A stretch of 64,000 bases of DNA, taken from a virus. Every line of letters starts with the position of its first letter. Position 1 is the stretch's first letter. This document shows positions 4,164-61,219 of this stretch, in pieces. Below the pieces are notes generated by a model. It saw nothing but the letters and a program-made list of their open reading frames with translations, did no database searches and was not told where the DNA came from. The stretch lies in IMG/VR virus record IMGVR_UViG_3300046477_000387, positions 1-64,000 of that record; one strand, written 5' to 3'. The position numbers and the translations under genes were made by a program.

Positions 4164-4511
4164 GTGGCTCGAACGTTTGATATAGATGAGTGTGCCGACT
4201 TCCTGAAGGTCGATCGGAATACGGCATTGAAGCTCGCGCAGCAGGGCGACCTGCCCGGTGCCCGGATTGGTCGCGCGTGGGTTTTTCTGGAGGATGACAT
4301 TGTCGAGTATCTGCGTGTGCGCGTGAGGCAACAGATGGCCGCACGCATCAGCGACAATGTAATTGAGACCGGGCTGCAAGCATCGCTGGAAAAGACGCCG
4401 CCGACCCCCTCTCCTCTGCTGCTCAAACGCAAGGCCCAGCGTAGCCGCACGCGTGAGCTTCCCGAGCTGCCAGCCCTACCAGAGCATATCGGCCAGCTCG
4501 CTCGCGCGTAG
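4164..4511 (+). CDS. Excisionase-like helix-turn-helix protein
   Basis: A 115-residue protein. Residues about 1-50 match the MerR/excisionase-type winged helix (FDIDECADFLKVDRNTALKL, then GDLPGARIGRAWVFLEDDIV). The C-terminal half is Lys/Arg/Pro-rich and probably disordered. The start is a GTG with only a weak ribosome-binding site. Its 3' end overlaps the convergent integrase gene by 36 bp. Likely roles are recombination directionality factor or a regulator of integration. Confidence 0.7.
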   Translation: MARTFDIDECADFLKVDRNTALKLAQQGDLPGARIGRAWVFLEDDIVEYLRVRVRQQMAARISDNVIETGLQASLEKTPPTPSPLLLKRKAQRSRTRELPELPALPEHIGQLARA

Positions 4512-5732
4512 GTTGGCGTAGCGCGCGAGCATGCGCATGTCCTTGTGTCCGGTGATCTTGGCGATCTCGGTGTCCCTGAGCCGGGTGCGAATGAACAGGC
4601 GGGCCGTCGCCTCGTGTCGCAGATCATGGAAGTGCAGGTCTTCGGCCCCCGCCGCCTCAAAGAGGTTGCCCCACATGACCGAGAGGCGTGAACTGATCTT
4701 CCTGAAGGCGAGCCGGTCCATCTCCGGGCGCTGCTGCGGGTCCGGGGTCCAGAACGGGAACAGCATGCCCCCGTCAAACGTGAAGCCGCCCATCGAGGGG
4801 TCATTGGCTGTCACTGCCTCGTAGTATCGGTTCAGGGCCGCGATCGCTACCGTGGTGAGCGGCACCTGCCGTTTTGATCCATTCTTCGTCTTCTCCAGGA
4901 AGATTGTGCGGCTGCCAATATCCACCTGGTCGACGCCCAGCGAATACATCTCCTTCATGCGCATCGCCGACTCCAGCGCCAGATCAAACATGCACTGGTG
5001 CGCCGGGCGGTATTCCGCGGCGAGCGCGCGCTCCCTGTAGCCCCCGTCCCGATGCCGCGGCCGGCCTCCCTCGAGCAGCCTGCGGATCTCCTTTTCTTCT
5101 TCTGCCGCGAGACGCCGGTCGCGCTCGTTCTCTCGGGGAATCGCGCGCCCCGCTCCCCCGGCTTTTCTCGCCTCCGCATTGCGCGTCTCAAGCTGGCGGC
5201 GGTCCGCCTCGGTGTAGGTCGCATAGCGCTTGGGCAGCAGCCGGATCGGATTGATCACCAGCCCCGCGATCTTCTTGCGGCTCGCCCAGTCAAAGCACCG
5301 CGCGAGCGCCCCCACATGATGCCGGATCGTTGAAGGCGCGAGGTTGTGGAACTGCTTCATTGAATCGATCCACGTTTCAACCCACGCATAATCGACGTTT
5401 CTTAATGCGATTGTCCCGATACGTGCATAAAGGACATTCAAGCATGCCACATCGCTTGAAGGAACATAACCTGATTTCAGGAATCCACCAATCACATCAC
5501 CAATGAAAGTGAATTTCTTGAGTTGCTCGTGAAATTCCTCGGGCACCTGTCCCAGACGCACGAGTGCCTCGAGGTGCTCGACATAGGCATCCATCTCCGC
5601 TTCGCGCTGCGCCCACCGGTCCGGCTGCGTTTCCTTTTCCAGATTCAGGGTGATGAAGATGGGCTTGGCGAGGTGTTCCTTACTCTTGACCGTCCACTCG
5701 ATGATGTGGTCGCGACGACGCTTGTAGGCCAT
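4476..5732 (-). CDS. int: Tyrosine recombinase (phage integrase)
   Basis: A 418-residue site-specific recombinase. The N-terminal region (about 80-180) is the SAM-like core-binding domain. The catalytic domain shows the first Arg in ALESAMRMKEMYSLGV, then HDLRHEATARLF (HxxR), then ITGHKDMRMLARYANL, with the box-II GH and the nucleophile Tyr near the C-terminus. The ATG at 5732 is preceded by CCGGAG at good spacing; an upstream in-frame extension of 32 codons is low-complexity and probably untranslated. The gene lies about 260 bp from a tRNA-Cys 3' end that is the likely attP, as is usual for integrases. Confidence 0.95.
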   Translation of the reverse strand: MAYKRRRDHIIEWTVKSKEHLAKPIFITLNLEKETQPDRWAQREAEMDAYVEHLEALVRLGQVPEEFHEQLKKFTFIGDVIGGFLKSGYVPSSDVACLNVLYARIGTIALRNVDYAWVETWIDSMKQFHNLAPSTIRHHVGALARCFDWASRKKIAGLVINPIRLLPKRYATYTEADRRQLETRNAEARKAGGAGRAIPRENERDRRLAAEEEKEIRRLLEGGRPRHRDGGYRERALAAEYRPAHQCMFDLALESAMRMKEMYSLGVDQVDIGSRTIFLEKTKNGSKRQVPLTTVAIAALNRYYEAVTANDPSMGGFTFDGGMLFPFWTPDPQQRPEMDRLAFRKISSRLSVMWGNLFEAAGAEDLHFHDLRHEATARLFIRTRLRDTEIAKITGHKDMRMLARYANLRASELADMLW

Positions 5733-5943
5733 GACGGTGTGCTCCGGTGGTCTGGACGTGCGCATGCGACACGCGCGAGGACACTCGGGGACGCCGCGCA
5801 GCCAGAGGAAAAGGGAAGGTGCCGGCACGCATGAACGGAGGGTGTCCAGGCGGGCGGTAGACTCATCTTAACGCACAACCCGACTATCTGCCGGTCGGTA
5901 AACCGGGCGGGTGCGGGCGGGTGAAGTGGTTTCTGGAGGGTTT

Positions 5944-45517: not shown

Positions 45518-47140
45518 TTAGCCTTCGGACTTCGTCGTCAGCGATTCAGTCGCCACCGCGCGGTCCGAGTATTTCTGGAGCTGCTGCTGGCTTTGCTGCT
45601 GGGCCTGAAGCTCCAGCGGCCCGGCCGGCGGCCAGTCCTTGAGGTCGGCGAGGATCTTGCTCTTGATATCCTTCGAAAGCTGCGGGAACAGCTTCTCGAT
45701 CACCGCCTTCATCTGCTCCTGGCGCAATGAGTCAGGAGCTTCGATGAGAGCAAGACGTGCGGCAATGTCGAACTCGTCGTAGAGTCCGCGCGTGTCGAAG
45801 TCATCCGGGTAGGTGACAAACTGCTGATCGTCGGCGAGTTCTTCGCCGTTCCAGAGTGCGACCAGCGCCGCAATCTTGTTCTCGATCGACTGCAGGGAGT
45901 CTGCCTTGGCCGCCAACAGAGCATTCACTCGCTCGAAGTCGTAGGCTTTAGCGACGCCTGAACTGTTGTCGATCCCAAGCGAGTTGTCCTGTTTGGTGCG
46001 CTCGCCAGCGAGACCAACGGTGTGGTAGATCTCGTTGATGATCTTGTGAATCACCGCGAGGATCATCTGGGCCTGCTTAGGGTCCGGGGAAATGTATTTG
46101 GGCTCGCCGCCCTCGCCGTCGTAGAGGAAGATGCGCTTGGTGCCCATCTCCATCATCTTCGTGTAGTTGTCGTCGCCCGGCATCATGCCCTGCGCCGGCA
46201 TCGCGAGCTGGCTGAACGTCTGGTCCTGGATGATGGCGTCCAGGTTCGACAGGTAGTTCGCCACGGCCCGGTCCAGGTAGGCAATGTCGTCAATCATCGA
46301 CGGCGCCACATACAGCTCGTCGGTAATCACGTGGTCAGCGAGGATCACCGGCACCACGCCCAGATTGTGGTTGCCGTTACCGATCTCGACCACCTTCTGC
46401 TTCTTGCCCTTGCCCTGGAGTTCGAACAGGTGCCAGTCCTGCTTCGTCCACAGACGGAAGCGCTGGAGGATCGCGCCGCTTGAGGTGAGCGGGTCGGAGT
46501 CGTCGCGCGCAGTCTCCTGGATCAGTGCCCAGTTCAGCGCGCCCATGCCGTCGTAGCTGTAGTCCAGCAACTGCTCGGGGCCAACCAGATACGCGTAGGT
46601 CATGACGCCAGCCTGACGCTCCTCGGCGACAGTCTCCACCGCGTCCGTCTTGGTGTTGTCGATCACGATGCCGATGCGGCCCTGGCGGGAGGTGCGCGAG
46701 GCGATCTGGCGAGCGAAGTCCTGAATGCCCAGACCGTTGCGGGTGCTTCTGAGCCAGAACTGCTTCACACAATCGGGCGCGTCGGTGTCGTTGCGGGTGA
46801 TGGCCTGCTTGAACAGATACTTGTTCAGCAGGTCGACCACTTCTTTCGTGTGATTGAAGCGGTAGGCACGCGCGAGGCGGTCGTTATATTCCCGGTCGCC
46901 TTCCTTGATGTAGCGGAAGACGTTGTCGTTGAACCACTCGCGGCCGCCCTCATACGTCTCCTCGATGAAGTGCCAGTGATTGACGTGGTCTTCGTATTCG
47001 GGGTGACGGCGCGCGACCAGCGCGCGGAGCTTTTTCTGCTCGTCGTCAGCGACAGGGGCGATGCCCATAGCGGCAGCCGAATCGACGTCATTCGGGTCGA
47101 TTGAGAACTGCTCGCCGGCGGTAAAGTGCTTGATTTCCAT
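45518..47140 (-). CDS. Portal protein
   Basis: A 540-residue protein in the terminase-portal-scaffold order. It has the mixed N-terminal clip/stem region, a long helix with AKAYDFERVNALLAAKADSL, and a Gln-rich C-terminus (LQAQQQSQQQLQK). This pattern resembles DUF4055-type portals. The portal ring is the DNA channel and terminase docking site. The ATG lies 8 bases after an AATACT -10 candidate with no ribosome-binding site, so the mRNA may be nearly leaderless. Confidence 0.85.
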   Translation of the reverse strand: MEIKHFTAGEQFSIDPNDVDSAAAMGIAPVADDEQKKLRALVARRHPEYEDHVNHWHFIEETYEGGREWFNDNVFRYIKEGDREYNDRLARAYRFNHTKEVVDLLNKYLFKQAITRNDTDAPDCVKQFWLRSTRNGLGIQDFARQIASRTSRQGRIGIVIDNTKTDAVETVAEERQAGVMTYAYLVGPEQLLDYSYDGMGALNWALIQETARDDSDPLTSSGAILQRFRLWTKQDWHLFELQGKGKKQKVVEIGNGNHNLGVVPVILADHVITDELYVAPSMIDDIAYLDRAVANYLSNLDAIIQDQTFSQLAMPAQGMMPGDDNYTKMMEMGTKRIFLYDGEGGEPKYISPDPKQAQMILAVIHKIINEIYHTVGLAGERTKQDNSLGIDNSSGVAKAYDFERVNALLAAKADSLQSIENKIAALVALWNGEELADDQQFVTYPDDFDTRGLYDEFDIAARLALIEAPDSLRQEQMKAVIEKLFPQLSKDIKSKILADLKDWPPAGPLELQAQQQSQQQLQKYSDRAVATESLTTKSEG

Positions 47141-47202: not shown

Positions 47203-48471
47203 TTAGACAGAAAGCCCGCCAAGTTCCAGACGGCGAACCGGGAATTCGAGGTCGATGCAGTAGCCGGCGGCGTCGGCCGAGTGTTCAGTGCCGGTCTTCT
47301 TGTCGACATCGCGCGAGCCAGGAACGTAGATCGTCTGTTCCAGCGACTTGATGAAGTGCTTGCAGGACGGGTCGATGCGCAGGCGCACCTGGCCGTCGGC
47401 CGAGCGCAGCATCCGGTTCACCGAGTTCACCCGGTCGGCCACGAGCGGGGACTTGCGGCGAAACTTGATGCGCTTGAACCCCTTCTCGCGAAGAATGTCC
47501 AGGTCCGTCTCGCCGCGCGCGTGCTGCCGCTGACCGCCCGCCGGGTCGGGGTAGACCGTCATCTGCTTCTGGTAGCGCCAGTATTTCTTCTCGAGCGCGT
47601 CAGCCGTCTCCTCGGTGTTCGAGCCAAACTGCACGATCTCGTCCACCGCCCACAGCTCGCCGTTCTCCTGCGGCTGGAAGATCACGGTGGACATGGGGTC
47701 GATGTTAAAGTCCATGCCCACCCAGATCGGCAGCCGCGGATTGAACTCCAGCTTCGAGACATGGATCGCGCGGTCAAACGGGTAGTAGACGCGCCCGCTC
47801 ATCGTCTCGAAGCTCGCCTCGAACTCCTGCTTGTAGGACTTCGGGTCCATGTCGCGCTTGGCGGCCTCGAGCTCCGAGCGCGGGATGAAGGGCGACGTGA
47901 AGGTCGGGAACTGCCAGCTTGCCCAGTCGTTCAGGCGCATGCGGCCGTTCGTGTCCAGATACTCGTCGCCGCGCTGGCCGAGCATGTAGACGGTGTGCAG
48001 GTAGTTGTAGGCTTTGGGCGTGCCAATAAACATGGCGTGGCCACCGGTGTCAGCGAGCGTCGGGCGCAGCACCTTGGTCCACGTCTCCTCGCTCATGTCC
48101 TGGAATTCATCGAGCACGAGAAAGTGGATACCCACGCCGCGCAGCGAGTCGGCCTTGTCGGCGCCCTTGAGTTCGATGCGGCTGCCGTTGCGCAGGTAGA
48201 TGGTGAGCGAGGTCTCGTTGACCTTCCTGACCCACTTCTTCGGGATCGCCTCGAGCAGATCGGTCCACATGATCTGTTTGGCCATCTTGTAGGTCGGGGC
48301 GACATACCAGATTTTGCGGCGCTTGATCTGGGCGAACTTGATCAGCAAGACTTTTGAAAGCGCGGTCTTGCCCCAGCGGCGCCCGGCCACCACCACCCGG
48401 AAGCGGCGGCGGTCCTGAAAGACCATCATCTGTTTGGGGTGCAGCGAGAGGGCCGCGGTCTTACGCGCCAT
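47203..48471 (-). CDS. terL: Terminase large subunit
   Basis: A 422-residue packaging motor. The ATPase domain has Walker A VVVAGRRWGKTALSK (about 26-40) and Walker B FLVLDEFQDMSEE (about 113). The RNase H-fold nuclease has its first Asp in VGMDFNIDPMST near residue 256 and a later acidic residue in the C-terminal part. It translocates DNA into the prohead and cuts concatemers. It overlaps the small subunit by 11 bp. Confidence 0.93.
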   Translation of the reverse strand: MARKTAALSLHPKQMMVFQDRRRFRVVVAGRRWGKTALSKVLLIKFAQIKRRKIWYVAPTYKMAKQIMWTDLLEAIPKKWVRKVNETSLTIYLRNGSRIELKGADKADSLRGVGIHFLVLDEFQDMSEETWTKVLRPTLADTGGHAMFIGTPKAYNYLHTVYMLGQRGDEYLDTNGRMRLNDWASWQFPTFTSPFIPRSELEAAKRDMDPKSYKQEFEASFETMSGRVYYPFDRAIHVSKLEFNPRLPIWVGMDFNIDPMSTVIFQPQENGELWAVDEIVQFGSNTEETADALEKKYWRYQKQMTVYPDPAGGQRQHARGETDLDILREKGFKRIKFRRKSPLVADRVNSVNRMLRSADGQVRLRIDPSCKHFIKSLEQTIYVPGSRDVDKKTGTEHSADAAGYCIDLEFPVRRLELGGLSV

Positions 48472-52964: not shown

Positions 52965-53500
52965 GCCGCAGCCTGCCGGTTGATCGACATCCACCAGGCC
53001 ATCGCCTTCGGGTTGTCCTGCCACAGCAAACAGAGCCCGCGGGCGCCGAACAGCGTGAAGTCCTCTTCGCCGTTCTCGTCGCCAAGATCGAAGTAGTAGT
53101 GGATCGCGTGGATGGCCTCGTGCAGAAACGTGTCCGCGAGGTTCTGTGCGGTCTGGTCAGGCGCCACACGGATCTTGTGATTCATCGGGTTCATGTGCCC
53201 GAACGAGCGGGAGGCGCTCGAGTCGCCGGCGTCCTCGACCTCCACCGCAAAGCGGAAGTGGCCGATCTTTAGCGATTTGGGGATGCCCCGGTAGGGGTCG
53301 CCCGCGCGGCTCAGTCGTCGCTCGTGATTTGCAGGACGAGCAGCAGCGCCAGCAGTTCGTCGGGCGACAGGGACACTGGCTCGCGACGCAGCGCCCACAC
53401 CGCGCCCAGCGCCACGAGAACCAGCAGGAAGATCAGCAGTATCGGAAGCAGCATCGAGTGCATGGTCATCCTCGCGTTTCGTTTGGGTGAAGGTTTTCAT
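52961..53500 (-). CDS. Zinc metallopeptidase (HExxH), start uncertain
   Basis: The reading frame is open for 179 codons. The C-terminal about 115 residues contain the domain IPKSLKIGHFRFAVEVEDAG, then KIRVAPDQTAQNLADTFLHE with AIHAIHYYF, i.e. HEAIH, a SprT/ImmA-like minigluzincin site. The first about 60 codons have Arg/Ala-rich, low-information composition and lie over a better-looking membrane-protein frame (53311-53463), so translation may start near 53314 at a non-ATG codon. An ATGA overlap with the ParB-like gene supports the long form. Targets are unknown. Confidence 0.6.
   Translation of the reverse strand: MKTFTQTKREDDHALDAASDTADLPAGSRGAGRGVGAASRASVPVARRTAGAAARPANHERRLSRAGDPYRGIPKSLKIGHFRFAVEVEDAGDSSASRSFGHMNPMNHKIRVAPDQTAQNLADTFLHEAIHAIHYYFDLGDENGEEDFTLFGARGLCLLWQDNPKAMAWWMSINRQAAA
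53311..53463 (-). CDS. 50-residue membrane protein overlapping the peptidase frame
   Basis: Frame encoding a strongly hydrophobic helix (SMLLPILLIFLLVLVALGAV) followed by RREPVSLSPDELLALLLVLQ. GAGG lies 6 bases before the ATG. Its composition looks genuine, whereas the overlapping peptidase N-terminus does not. Confidence 0.55.
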   Translation of the reverse strand: MHSMLLPILLIFLLVLVALGAVWALRREPVSLSPDELLALLLVLQITSDD

Positions 53501-54144
53501 GCGTTTGCGACCTCTTTTGCGTGGGCGACAAGCGCGTCGGCGCCCGTCAGTCCGGTTTGTGCTTCGATCGTTGCCATGAAGCGGGCGAGATGACGCTCGT
53601 CTCGGCCGGCGATGCTCTTGAAGCCCAGCACCTTGTCCAGGCGCACTTCGCGAGAGTCGGTTTCGTCGACTGCCTTGGTCGCCGAGAGCGCCTGTTCGCG
53701 CACCACCTCGTCCAGATCCTCGACGAAGGGCGCGTCGTTGATCTCGCCCAGGTCCGCGGTCATGAACTCGAGCTCCTTGGCGTCGAAGATGCCCTCGAGG
53801 CTCACTTCGAGCGAGGCGAGTTCTTCCTGCAGCAGGCGCGCGTCAATCTCGGAAATCGCAACCCGGTTATCCGCAAGGCGCAGCGCCTTCGCTTCGTCCT
53901 TCGTCAGGTCACCACGGATCACGACCGGAACGTGCGTTTCGCCGCGCTTGATCGCTGCCAGGCGCCGGCCGTGACCCGCGATGATCGTGCCGTCCGCTTC
54001 GGTGACGATCGCCGTTGTCCAGCCGAATTTCTGGATCGAGGCGGCGATCTTGTCGATCTGCGCCGCGTCGTGGATCTTCGCGTTCGTCTCGTAGGGCTTC
54101 AGGAAGTCAATCGGCTTCAGTTGGGGTTTGAATTCGCGGCTCAT
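53497..54144 (-). CDS. ParB/Srx-fold protein
   Basis: A 215-residue protein. Residues about 10-110 are the ParB N-terminal fold (IDKIAASIQKFGWTTAIVTE; then TIIAGHGRRLAAIKRG; then ALRLADNRVAISE). It resembles the ParB-like domains found next to DNA modification genes in phages and has no helix-turn-helix typical of segregation ParB. It overlaps both neighbours by 4 bp. Possibly a site-specific factor or nuclease for the DNA-modification module. Confidence 0.78.
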   Translation of the reverse strand: MSREFKPQLKPIDFLKPYETNAKIHDAAQIDKIAASIQKFGWTTAIVTEADGTIIAGHGRRLAAIKRGETHVPVVIRGDLTKDEAKALRLADNRVAISEIDARLLQEELASLEVSLEGIFDAKELEFMTADLGEINDAPFVEDLDEVVREQALSATKAVDETDSREVRLDKVLGFKSIAGRDERHLARFMATIEAQTGLTGADALVAHAKEVANA

Positions 54145-54333: not shown

Positions 54334-54801
54334 TCAGAGCGTGACCCAGTCGTTGGTGAGCATGTCGGCTTGCGAAGGCGCCCACGGCATGAAGGTGTTC
54401 TCGGACGTCTTGATGGCGATCCATGCGCTCTCGGGCAGGTTGCAGTCGCCGTAGTCGCTCTCGATGGTGCCGCCGGCCGGATGGAACATTTCGAGGAACC
54501 AGTCGTTGCTGCCCCAACCCACGCGCGCGACGCGCATGCGAGCCTTCAGGGCTTCGAGCGCTGTGCCGAACGTCTGACCGACAGCGGGCTTGTAGGCGTT
54601 CTCGAAGACGTCCGTGGGCGACCAGCTCACATAGCCAGCGTGGCCCGCGACGTTCGCCTTGCCGCCGTCCAGATACTCGACGAGGAAGCCCTCGTCGGCG
54701 CCGTTCTCATCAGCCGGCAGAGTCCAGCCGCGGTAAGTGTTGTAGTCGGCGCGCGTCATCGGTTTCGCGAGGACGGCTTTAGTGCCAATGTATCGATCCA
54801 T
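54334..54801 (-). CDS. Tad2-like (DUF2829) anti-Thoeris protein fused to a phage N-terminal domain
   Basis: A 155-residue protein. Residues about 80-155 match the DUF2829/Tad2 family: TFGTALEALKARMRVARVGW, then AWIAIKTSENTFMPWAPSQA and DMLTNDWVTL. Tad2 proteins are tetrameric sponges that bind the cyclic ADP-ribose-type signals of Thoeris. Residues 1-75 (RYIGTKAVLAKPMTRADYNT, then YVSWSPTDVFENAY) are a separate small domain common in phages. The fusion may alter ligand range. An operator lies 12 bases before the ATG and there is no clear ribosome-binding site. Confidence 0.82.
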   Translation of the reverse strand: MDRYIGTKAVLAKPMTRADYNTYRGWTLPADENGADEGFLVEYLDGGKANVAGHAGYVSWSPTDVFENAYKPAVGQTFGTALEALKARMRVARVGWGSNDWFLEMFHPAGGTIESDYGDCNLPESAWIAIKTSENTFMPWAPSQADMLTNDWVTL

Positions 54802-54813
54802 GTTCGTTTGCAC

Positions 54814-54830: not shown

Positions 54831-55475
54831 TCAGTGGGTAAGCAGGTGAACCAGCGCGTTGCCGGCGTTGGTCAGGGAATCGTCTTCGGTGAAGCGCTGG
54901 GTCTTCATGGTGGACTCGATCAGGTCCGTGATGGTCGCAACGTCCTCGACCGGCACCTTGAAGCGCATGACCTGATGGGTCTGAACCGGCTTTTCCTTGG
55001 GCAGCACACTCGGGCTCCCGTCATCGTCCGGTATGTCTAAATCATCCAGCGCTATATTTACTGACGAGAAGATCGAAGCGAAATCTGCGTCCGTGTAGGG
55101 CATGAAGGTCGCGAGGTCATCGGGCGAGCCCAGACCGTCCAGAAGCTCCGCCAGACGTAGTGTGTCGTCGTTGCCGTAGCGGCCGTTGTCGACCAGGCTG
55201 ATCTCCTTCGCGCGCTTGTCGTCCACCTTGCCTAAATTGATGACAGGAACGGTCTTGTGACCCAAACGCTTCGCGCTTCTCCACCGATGCTCACCGCCAA
55301 GAATCTCAAGGGCGCCGTCGGCCAGTTCGCGAGCCAGCACCGGCTTGAAGAACCCGAAGCGCTTCAGGCTTTCGTCGATCTTCGCCTCATTTTCCGGAGA
55401 CACGACGTTGGTGTTGAAGCTGTTCGCTCGCAGAGCATCGGGCGACAGTTCGGTGATTTGGAGTTTTCCAGGCAT
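54831..55475 (-). CDS. ParB-like protein with CTP-site-like motif
   Basis: A 214-residue protein. The N-terminal ParB domain has NEAKIDESLKRFGFFKPVLA and ILGGEHRWRSAKRLG (60-72), close to the GERRxRA motif of segregation ParB. The C-terminal part is acidic and lacks a recognisable DNA-binding HTH. I start it at the ATG at 55475; a long upstream extension overlaps the divergent HNH gene. The start has no ribosome-binding site. Operator 55493 lies in the 52-bp divergent gap. Confidence 0.75.
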   Translation of the reverse strand: MPGKLQITELSPDALRANSFNTNVVSPENEAKIDESLKRFGFFKPVLARELADGALEILGGEHRWRSAKRLGHKTVPVINLGKVDDKRAKEISLVDNGRYGNDDTLRLAELLDGLGSPDDLATFMPYTDADFASIFSSVNIALDDLDIPDDDGSPSVLPKEKPVQTHQVMRFKVPVEDVATITDLIESTMKTQRFTEDDSLTNAGNALVHLLTH

Positions 55476-55492
55476 TGGGATATATTTTGGGT

Positions 55493-55506
55493 AGTCAGTT
55501 TCGACT
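55493..55506. promoter_or_regulatory. Operator in the divergent ParB-HNH gap
   Basis: AGTCAGTTTCGACT, with the same single change as the copy at 11261. TTGACA follows on the plus strand. Confidence 0.78.
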
Positions 55507-55527
55507 GTTGACACAAGGGTAAGCCAA

Positions 55528-56181
55528 TTGGATTGCAGCGTCAAGAAAAAGACTGGACCCGCGCCCATAGATATGACCGGCCGCGTATTTGGGCGGCTCG
55601 TGGCTCTGGAATATGTGGGCTTCGGCAAGTGGCTCTGTGAATGCGAATGCGGAAACGTTACGTCTCATGACGGGCCGGATCTGCGGCGCGGTCGTGTTCA
55701 GTCTTGCGGGTGCCTTCAGCTCGAAGTCGCAAAGACCGGCGACTGTCGTCGCACGCATGGGTTCGCCGGCACGCCGGAGTATCGGACCTGGGCGTCTATG
55801 ATCCGCCGATGCAGTGATCCAAGCGCGGCTGGCTATCATCGCTACGGCGGGCGCGGCATCGACGTGTGTGACCGCTGGCGCGGGAGCGTTGAAGACTTCG
55901 TAGCGGATATGGGGCCGCGGCCGCCCGGAACCACTCTGGATCGCTTCCCCGACCCTGACGGTAACTACGAGCCTGGCAATTGCAGATGGGCGACGCGCAC
56001 CGAGCAGGCGGCCAACACTTGCACCGCTGTTCTCGTAACCGCAAACGGCAAGACTCAAACTATGGACGCATGGGCTCGAGAGCTAGGCATCGCGGCAAAG
56101 ACAATCGCTTACCGCCTCAAGAAGGGCATGAGCCATCACGACGCCATCAATACTCCATTCCGCGCACACACCTGCTGGTAA
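55528..56181 (+). CDS. HNH-type (homing-like) endonuclease
   Basis: A 217-residue protein. The N-terminal region (TGRVFGRLVALEYVGFGKWL, then CECECGNVT and SCGCLQ) has Cys pairs for zinc. The nuclease core is RRCSDPSAAGYHRYGGRGID, then GTTLDRFPDPDGNYEPGNCR with WATRTEQAANT, typical of phage HNH homing enzymes. The C-terminus has an HTH-like end (MDAWARELGIAAKTIAYRLK). The start is probably TTG at 55528 after AAGGG; the next ATG is at 55573. It is probably a mobile gene inserted beside an operator. Confidence 0.8.
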   Translation: MDCSVKKKTGPAPIDMTGRVFGRLVALEYVGFGKWLCECECGNVTSHDGPDLRRGRVQSCGCLQLEVAKTGDCRRTHGFAGTPEYRTWASMIRRCSDPSAAGYHRYGGRGIDVCDRWRGSVEDFVADMGPRPPGTTLDRFPDPDGNYEPGNCRWATRTEQAANTCTAVLVTANGKTQTMDAWARELGIAAKTIAYRLKKGMSHHDAINTPFRAHTCW

Positions 56182-60010: not shown

Positions 60011-60175
60011 TCAGCGGCCAACCGCGCCCACAACCGCATTGCGTGTCGTGCGGTTCGCAATGCGTTGACAGTCACGCGAGACCGCCTGTAACGCGCTATC
60101 GCGTGCGTATGAGTAGAGACACAAGAGACCACATGCAATCAGCAACAGAGACACAATCAGCAACAGATGCAGCAT
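60011..60175 (-). CDS. Small membrane protein beside parS
   Basis: A 54-residue protein with a single N-terminal transmembrane helix containing Cys (MLHLLLIVSLLLIACGLLCL) and a basic tail (RDCQRIANRTTRNAVVGAVG). GAGGGGG precedes the ATG at good spacing. The parS/operator element lies immediately upstream, so its promoter may overlap that element. Function unknown. Confidence 0.55.
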   Translation of the reverse strand: MLHLLLIVSLLLIACGLLCLYSYARDSALQAVSRDCQRIANRTTRNAVVGAVGR

Positions 60176-60193: not shown

Positions 60194-60223
60194 AACTGAC
60201 TGTTTCACGTGAAACAGTCAGTT
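60194..60223. other. parS: parS-type centromere palindrome
   Basis: The 16 bp TGTTTCACGTGAAACA at 60201-60216 are identical to the chromosomal ParB-binding consensus. The symmetry extends 7 bp on each side (AACTGAC and GTCAGTT) to a perfect 30-bp palindrome. The right arm is also the left half of the operator at 60216-60229. Neither ParB-like protein in the window has the HTH expected of a parS reader, so host ParB is the likely ligand. Confidence 0.85.
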
Positions 60224-60229
60224 TTGACT
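60216..60229. promoter_or_regulatory. Operator fused to parS
   Basis: A perfect AGTCAGTTTTGACT whose first bases are part of the extended parS palindrome. Confidence 0.88.
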
Positions 60230-60237
60230 ATCGCACG

Positions 60238-61164
60238 TTACACAGTAAAGAGCGCTTGAACCTTCTTAGCTGCGCTCGAATCAGTCAGCGTGATCGAGTC
60301 GTCTTTTCGACCTTTGATGACATTGCAAATATTCATAAAGCGCAACATCTGACGCGTGCTCGATGCTTGTGTGCTCGCGGTTGACGGTTCGCACATTTTG
60401 AAGCTGCGGACCGCTTCAGTTTGCATATCTTCGCTAAATACGACTTTGTTCGAAAGCGAGATCTGCGAACCGCGATTCGAGAGCGCTTGCAGCTTGACGA
60501 GATTACGCAGAATCGCGACCGTGTAACCGTCAAACACTGACGTCATACCGCAAGCGAGAGCAAAAACCGCTTTGCGGATTTTTTGCGCTGCATAAATCGC
60601 AACGTAGTCATGCGCGCGAGAATCGAAAATCGCATACTGTTTAGCGAGCGCTTCGAAGTCGACTTCGAGTTCAATACAGCGTTCGATAGCAATCAGCGCA
60701 TTACGACCGCTCAGCGCGCTAAGCTCTGCACTCATGTTCTTTTTGAAGTTTGCAGACGGTGCGTTATCAATGCGCGTTTTGATCGATTCGAGAATCAGCG
60801 CTTGCATGCGAACCGACTTGTCGCGGTTCGTTTCAGCGCTTTCGATTGTCGGTGCAGCGCTTTCGTTAGACGGTGCAGCGCTTTCGTTAGACGGTGCAGC
60901 GCTTTCGATTGTCGGTGCAGCGCTTTCGTTAGACGGTGCAGCGCTTTCGTTAGACGGTGCAGCGCTTTCGATTGTCGGTTCGACTGCGCAAAATTCATCA
61001 TACGCTGCTTTGTCTGCTGCTTCTTTCTCTGCTGCTGCTTTCTCTGCTGCTGCTGCGCGAACAGCGTCGTTAGCTTTGCGCGACGCTTTGCGCTTTGCTT
61101 CTTTCGACGCTGCTTTAGCTGCTGCGTTCAAGTCGTTCGTGAGTGCGTTCGTTTGTGCGTTCAT
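60238..61164 (-). CDS. Protein of unknown function with heptapeptide repeats
   Basis: A 308-residue protein. The first about 55 residues are Ala/Lys-rich coil. Then seven tandem 7-residue units of the form SNESAAP or TIESAAP follow, encoded by 21-bp DNA repeats between about 60836 and 60980. The C-terminal about 190 residues are a helical domain (IAIERCIELEVDFEALAKQY; DYVAIYAAQKIRKAVFALAC) that I do not recognise. Lys is mostly AAA and Glu GAA, and the gene is less GC-rich than its neighbours, suggesting recent transfer or selection for high expression. Operator 61206 lies upstream and parS downstream. Confidence 0.7.
   Translation of the reverse strand: MNAQTNALTNDLNAAAKAASKEAKRKASRKANDAVRAAAAEKAAAEKEAADKAAYDEFCAVEPTIESAAPSNESAAPSNESAAPTIESAAPSNESAAPSNESAAPTIESAETNRDKSVRMQALILESIKTRIDNAPSANFKKNMSAELSALSGRNALIAIERCIELEVDFEALAKQYAIFDSRAHDYVAIYAAQKIRKAVFALACGMTSVFDGYTVAILRNLVKLQALSNRGSQISLSNKVVFSEDMQTEAVRSFKMCEPSTASTQASSTRQMLRFMNICNVIKGRKDDSITLTDSSAAKKVQALFTV
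60836..60980. repeat. Tandem 21-bp coding repeats
   Basis: Units GCGCTTTCGTTAGACGGTGCA and GCGCTTTCGATTGTCGGTGCA differ by four bases and alternate in a 1-2-1-2-1 pattern over seven copies. Copy number is likely to vary by slippage. Confidence 0.85.
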
Positions 61165-61205
61165 TTTGTAGACTCGTATGTGTGCGTTGTGTTTCACGGT
61201 CAGAC

Positions 61206-61219
61206 AGTCAGTTCTTACT
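61206..61219. promoter_or_regulatory. Operator before the repeat-protein gene
   Basis: AGTCAGTTCTTACT inside a longer AGACAGT...ACTGTCT symmetry; a half parS sequence (TGTTTCACGG) lies a few bases away. Confidence 0.72.

Follow-up and report, generated by a model that had tools for sequence, protein, structure and literature searches.

The virus record analyzed here probably carries an orphan parS, that is, a chromosomal ParB-loading site which selection maintains on a phage that itself encodes no parS-recognizing ParB, and at which the ParB of the host is predicted to load. The record is a 68,357-base IMG/VR contig, a fragment, from which a stretch of 64 kb was analyzed (hereafter the window, labeled G000 in the comparisons). 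The 16-mer TGTTTCACGTGAAACA matches the 16-bp chromosomal parS consensus exactly and is the sole match in the 64-kb window with up to three mismatches allowed, when base composition predicts 4e-6 exact 16-mers. It forms the center of a 30-bp palindrome, which shares 8 bp with an operator-like dyad that itself overlaps parS by 1 bp. An earlier note on this DNA had claimed an exact chromosomal ParB site (60201-60216), a palindrome perfect to 30 bp (60194-60223) whose right arm runs into a phage operator, and a match very unlikely to arise by chance, and the analysis bears out each of these points. The elements concerned are as follows:

60201-60216, no strand assigned: canonical chromosomal-type parS, TGTTTCACGTGAAACA, an exact 16-mer match
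60194-60223, no strand assigned: perfect 30-bp palindrome with arms of 15 nt (60194-60208 and 60209-60223) and no spacer
60216-60229, minus strand: operator-like dyad AGTCAGTTTTGACT, also listed as AGTCAAAACTGACT, abutting parS
60238-61164, minus strand: gene of the phrog_4202 family encoding P0001, a 308-aa protein with no assigned function; parS starts 22 nt 3′ of its stop
60011-60175, minus strand: short ORF of 54 aa with a membrane helix predicted by eye and a GAGGGGG ribosome-binding-like sequence

The site lies within the leader of the 54-aa ORF, of which a near-identical counterpart exists in the related phage G001. Used as a query, the upstream neighbor P0001 retrieved no more than three relatives from IMG/VR and none from genome contigs, and its AlphaFold2 model (mean pLDDT 56.9, pTM 0.42) was too poor for a fold search. 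Between 60829 and 60975, this gene contains 21-nt tandem repeats that form a variable-length linker of the protein and differ among relatives.

The phage itself could be placed with SSU5, nickie, and RHEph10 because of the kinship of its portal protein and large terminase:

45518-47140, minus strand: portal protein, used for phage placement, 55% to SSU5
47203-48471, minus strand: large terminase, about 61% to nickie-like phages

By this kinship, the record is assigned to an SSU5/nickie-like phage that belongs to the phage-plasmid type and of which it covers a fragment, and many of the portal relatives are recorded as plasmids, mostly from Klebsiella, Escherichia, and Acinetobacter. The window also has an integrase gene (phrog_1) at 4476-5828, its lineage being known otherwise for phage-plasmids.

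The parS core was searched in 50 records collected as portal relatives, with G000, G002, and G003 being fragments and G001, G004, G005, and G015 measuring 110-114 kb. Besides the window, the 14-bp core GTTTCACGTGAAAC is exact in G001, G002, G004 (twice), G005 (twice), and G015, so that six phages share it unchanged at eight sites in all, and every positive phage has a core just 3′ of a phrog_4202 homolog, its conserved neighbor throughout. In G004 and G005, the second exact core lies 680-820 bp away, with different arms, before a small ORF; the sites precede an ORF of 54-177 aa by 12-32 nt. Between close clade members, the adjacent gene is only 52-65% identical at four-fold degenerate sites, and the core is conserved beyond neutral expectation across these eight copies, G003 being without it. 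The sole variable position of the 16-mer is 1/16, as seen in TGTTTCACGTGAAACG from G001 and CGTTTCACGTGAAACA from G015. In SPR measurements, the chromosomal ParBc1 of Burkholderia cenocepacia tolerated substitutions only at position 1/16, plus one transition at 5/12 (PMC5450999), and the variation observed in the phages fits this tolerance, which is best at 1/16. In the distant relative G015, parS is found 33 nt after the same phrog_4202 gene, outside its hairpin and without an operator; well-supported branches separate this phage from the window clade, and parS must have been gained or lost at least twice on the tree. On the other side of the balance, the five clade phages represent one common ancestry, which counts against an orphan parS kept by selection. 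Moreover, G003 lies inside the clade and has a hairpin with no parS core. Because a hairpin of other sequence stands at the same place in most relatives, and because G003 does without parS, the site is dispensable. No core within two mismatches was found in SSU5, pJN2-26, hairong, RHEph10, or RHph_N1_10.

Within the immediate clade, an operator-like dyad adjoins every one of the seven exact cores found in five phages, on one side or the other; a search of relatives for conserved parS-operator fusions had been proposed in the earlier note. An IMG/VR search with the fusion pattern matched these clade phages only, and none was found in genome_contigs. The record contains about 28 dyads of the AGTCA-N4-TGACT type, exact or with one mismatch. 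With few exceptions they share one orientation and closely precede minus-strand genes, in some cases next to TTGACA- or TATAAT-like hexamers; the 110 kb of G001 contain 36 such sites at up to one mismatch. Their distribution suggests dispersed operators for a single phage regulator. Dyads of this kind are found at promoters phage-wide and, at the same position, in several distant relatives as well. The leader of the phrog_4202 gene contains two further elements:

61206-61219, minus strand: operator-like dyad with one mismatch
61190-61199, no strand assigned: degenerate half parS, TGTTTCACGG, beside the 61206-61219 operator

The half parS had been taken as a sign that the pairing with an operator evolved repeatedly. 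We found it to be a degenerate half site and not a second parS: its counterpart in two relatives reads CCGTGAAACA or CACGTGAAACA on the coding strand, and the right half is kept in G000-G002 only. Repeated evolution of the pairing is likewise not what the relatives indicate, the fusion having a single-clade origin, with a double occurrence in two members and an absence in one, and G015 having no operator at its site.

Beyond this lineage, exact parS sites were found in at least 120 IMG/VR stretches, forming at least 102 clusters without nucleotide kinship around the site. The controls consisted of TGTTTCACNGTGAAACA, in which one base is inserted in the middle of the site (four sequences), and of a scrambled palindrome; they matched 13 stretches and none, respectively, so that parS is over-represented in viral contigs at least 37-fold per sequence relative to the spaced control. 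Among the matches listed, and with a simple ORF call, 87 of 146 sites (60%) are intergenic, versus about 20% of bases. Similarly, 40 of the 45 longer parS contigs among the matches listed have no TIGR00180 match at an E-value of 1e-3, and none of the 45 has one above the cut-off. Phage status was checked for part of the contigs, 8 out of 10 large proteins sampled from them matching PHROGs. Several individual cases may be mentioned: a 201-kb viral contig (L069) with parS at 4944-4959 and 5819-5834, just upstream of ORFs and within near-identical leaders; an 18-kb contig (L094) with an exact parS (4945-4960) inside an ORF, and which encodes a phi29-like pre-neck appendage protein; and a cluster of 15 viral contigs (L007 and 14 other loci) with nucleotide similarity around parS. 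Among named phages, blastn of the 61-bp element yielded chance-level matches only (best E about 2-5), and the stretches it returned from the Arthrobacter phages Bennie and Atuin contain no exact parS; a Listeria phage record marked UNVERIFIED does hold one and was not counted as evidence.

Could the palindrome be explained by something other than parS? A perfect stem of 9-17 bp follows 19 of the 24 phrog_4202 homologs of the lineage, mostly with an unrelated sequence and mostly devoid of parS, so the hairpin extends more widely than parS. Changes in the outer stem are compensatory within the window clade, G001 keeping its hairpin through a G-U pair at the expense of the DNA palindrome, and the RNA fold is stable on the coding strand (z -3.5). 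On the minus-strand transcript of the window, the palindrome gives a 13-bp hairpin without a U-tract, and a scan of both strands for intrinsic terminators did not return this site, which has the stem but lacks a T-run on the coding strand. The long palindrome is hence not explained by parS: it is the hairpin that trails the same gene in most relatives. The stems of the relatives, the compensatory changes, and the stable fold would suit an mRNA hairpin that acts alone behind the phrog_4202 gene, at its 3′ end, in processing, stability, or weak termination, with parS letters that are accidental. We nevertheless consider this improbable, as it would leave unexplained why a 14-bp core stays invariant beside a variable outer stem, why G004 and G005 have second copies, and why the core of G015 is found outside the hairpin, in addition to the absence of the site from the terminator list. 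Since the core is invariant next to a divergent neighbor, since it lies outside the hairpin in G015, since at least two changes are required on the tree, and since variation is confined to position 1/16, the letters of parS appear to be selected as parS. The hairpin is a real, separate, and more general feature, to which parS, as far as comparative sequence analysis can tell, is an added sequence under selection.

As to the protein that reads the site, the phage encodes two ParB-like proteins:

54831-55628, minus strand: ParB_N (CTPase-fold) protein, phrog_723, with no ParB HTH domain and not a credible parS binder
53497-54144, minus strand: second ParB_N-like protein, phrog_930, with no ParB HTH domain

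The phrog_723 protein (P0002) matches solved ParB/Noc structures over the N-domain only; a protein with a Tad2-like (Thoeris anti-defence 2-like) domain is encoded beside a ParB_N gene, at 54334-54813. No match to HTH_ParB (PF17762) was found in G000-G005 or G015, where ParB_N-only proteins occur instead of a ParB with both CTPase and HTH domains, and the TIGR00180 matches of G001, G004, G005, and G015 cover the N-terminal part only, none being above the cut-off. It might be argued that the palindrome is recognized by a phage protein (a ParB_N protein, P0001, or the regulator that binds the dyads) and resembles parS by convergence, given that an operator adjoins parS at seven sites and that two ParB_N proteins are at hand. 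However, the latter lack an HTH and are also encoded by G003, which has no parS, relatives of P0001 without parS are common, and an accidental match to the 14 fixed bases of parS is unlikely, so that this convergence strikes us as highly improbable. Since the search of the parS-bearing records revealed no HTH_ParB domain, host ParB is the likeliest reader of the site, assuming that the host has a parS-reading ParB. The recruitment of host ParB put forward in the earlier note accordingly remains the best reading, as a prediction. As for ParA, none was found in G000, G001, G002, or G015 (PF13614; PF01656 above cut-off), and one is present in G004 and G005. We rejected the idea that parS substitutes for a lost ParA system, as both are present in G004 and G005 and neither in other relatives.

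If the phage does carry an orphan parS, the core would be loaded with host ParB once the phage DNA is in the cell; ParB would then spread over the neighboring leader and genes and link the phage DNA to the ParA/SMC machinery of the host. This could result either in the segregation and positioning of an extrachromosomal prophage or in a ParB-dependent control of the short operon behind parS, and both partition with positioning and gene control seem to fit the data. Since the operator abuts parS, competition with the phage regulator is suggested, in which case ParB loading would depend on regulator occupancy. It is conceivable, if doubtful, that the orphan parS acts as a host-ParB-dependent regulatory element and not as a centromere, repressing the downstream ORF and its neighbors in competition with the regulator. 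The proximity of the sites to the ORFs that follow them (12-32 nt ahead of 54-177 aa), the joint presence of ParA and parS in G004 and G005, and the position of both parS copies of the unrelated viral contig L069 immediately before ORFs are in line with such a role. So are the repression of adjacent genes by ParB after insertion of parS by a promoter in Pseudomonas aeruginosa (PMC7022226) and the reported contribution of the Sop partition system of the phage-plasmid N15 to late gene expression (a paper cited in PMC11652158). Against it, the downstream ORFs come from different families, and partition and regulation are not mutually exclusive. More speculatively, and rather unlikely as a whole, phages may widely carry orphan chromosomal parS sites that recruit host ParB, and the present clade may have fused one of them to an operator, creating in an operon leader a switch based on competition between regulator and ParB that would couple prophage behavior to host chromosome segregation.

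Centromere sites on phage-plasmids are known from N15 and P1. Each of these has a ParA/ParB pair (SopA/SopB) and centromere sequences of its own, whereas the window clade shows no cognate ParB. Compared with the parS of chromosomal ParABS systems, the 16-bp palindrome is identical, and the variation among phages is limited to position 1/16, which ParBc1 tolerates (PMC5450999). It differs from them in being located on a phage, in one or two copies, with no adjoining parAB operon, and in an operon leader where it is fused to a phage operator-like dyad. It differs as well from the SSU5-like phages, to which the portal and large terminase are related, in that the five reference phages searched have no such core. 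A parallel is SGI1, a mobile element with two sites that mimic the parS of IncC plasmids and hijack the plasmid ParABS (PMC10954446). There, the system belongs to a helper plasmid and binding has been shown (PMC10954446), while here the site matches the parS of the host chromosome and is predicted to bind host ParB. In the open-access literature, mostly at the level of titles and abstracts, we found no description of a phage that exploits the chromosomal ParB of its host by means of parS.

If host ParB does load on this phage, a virus would be using the chromosome segregation machine of its host at the cost of 14-16 bp and of no gene. Mimicry of parS, as shown for SGI1 and a plasmid system, would then extend to phages and the host chromosome, and the over-representation of parS in viral contigs is suggestive of a wider phenomenon.
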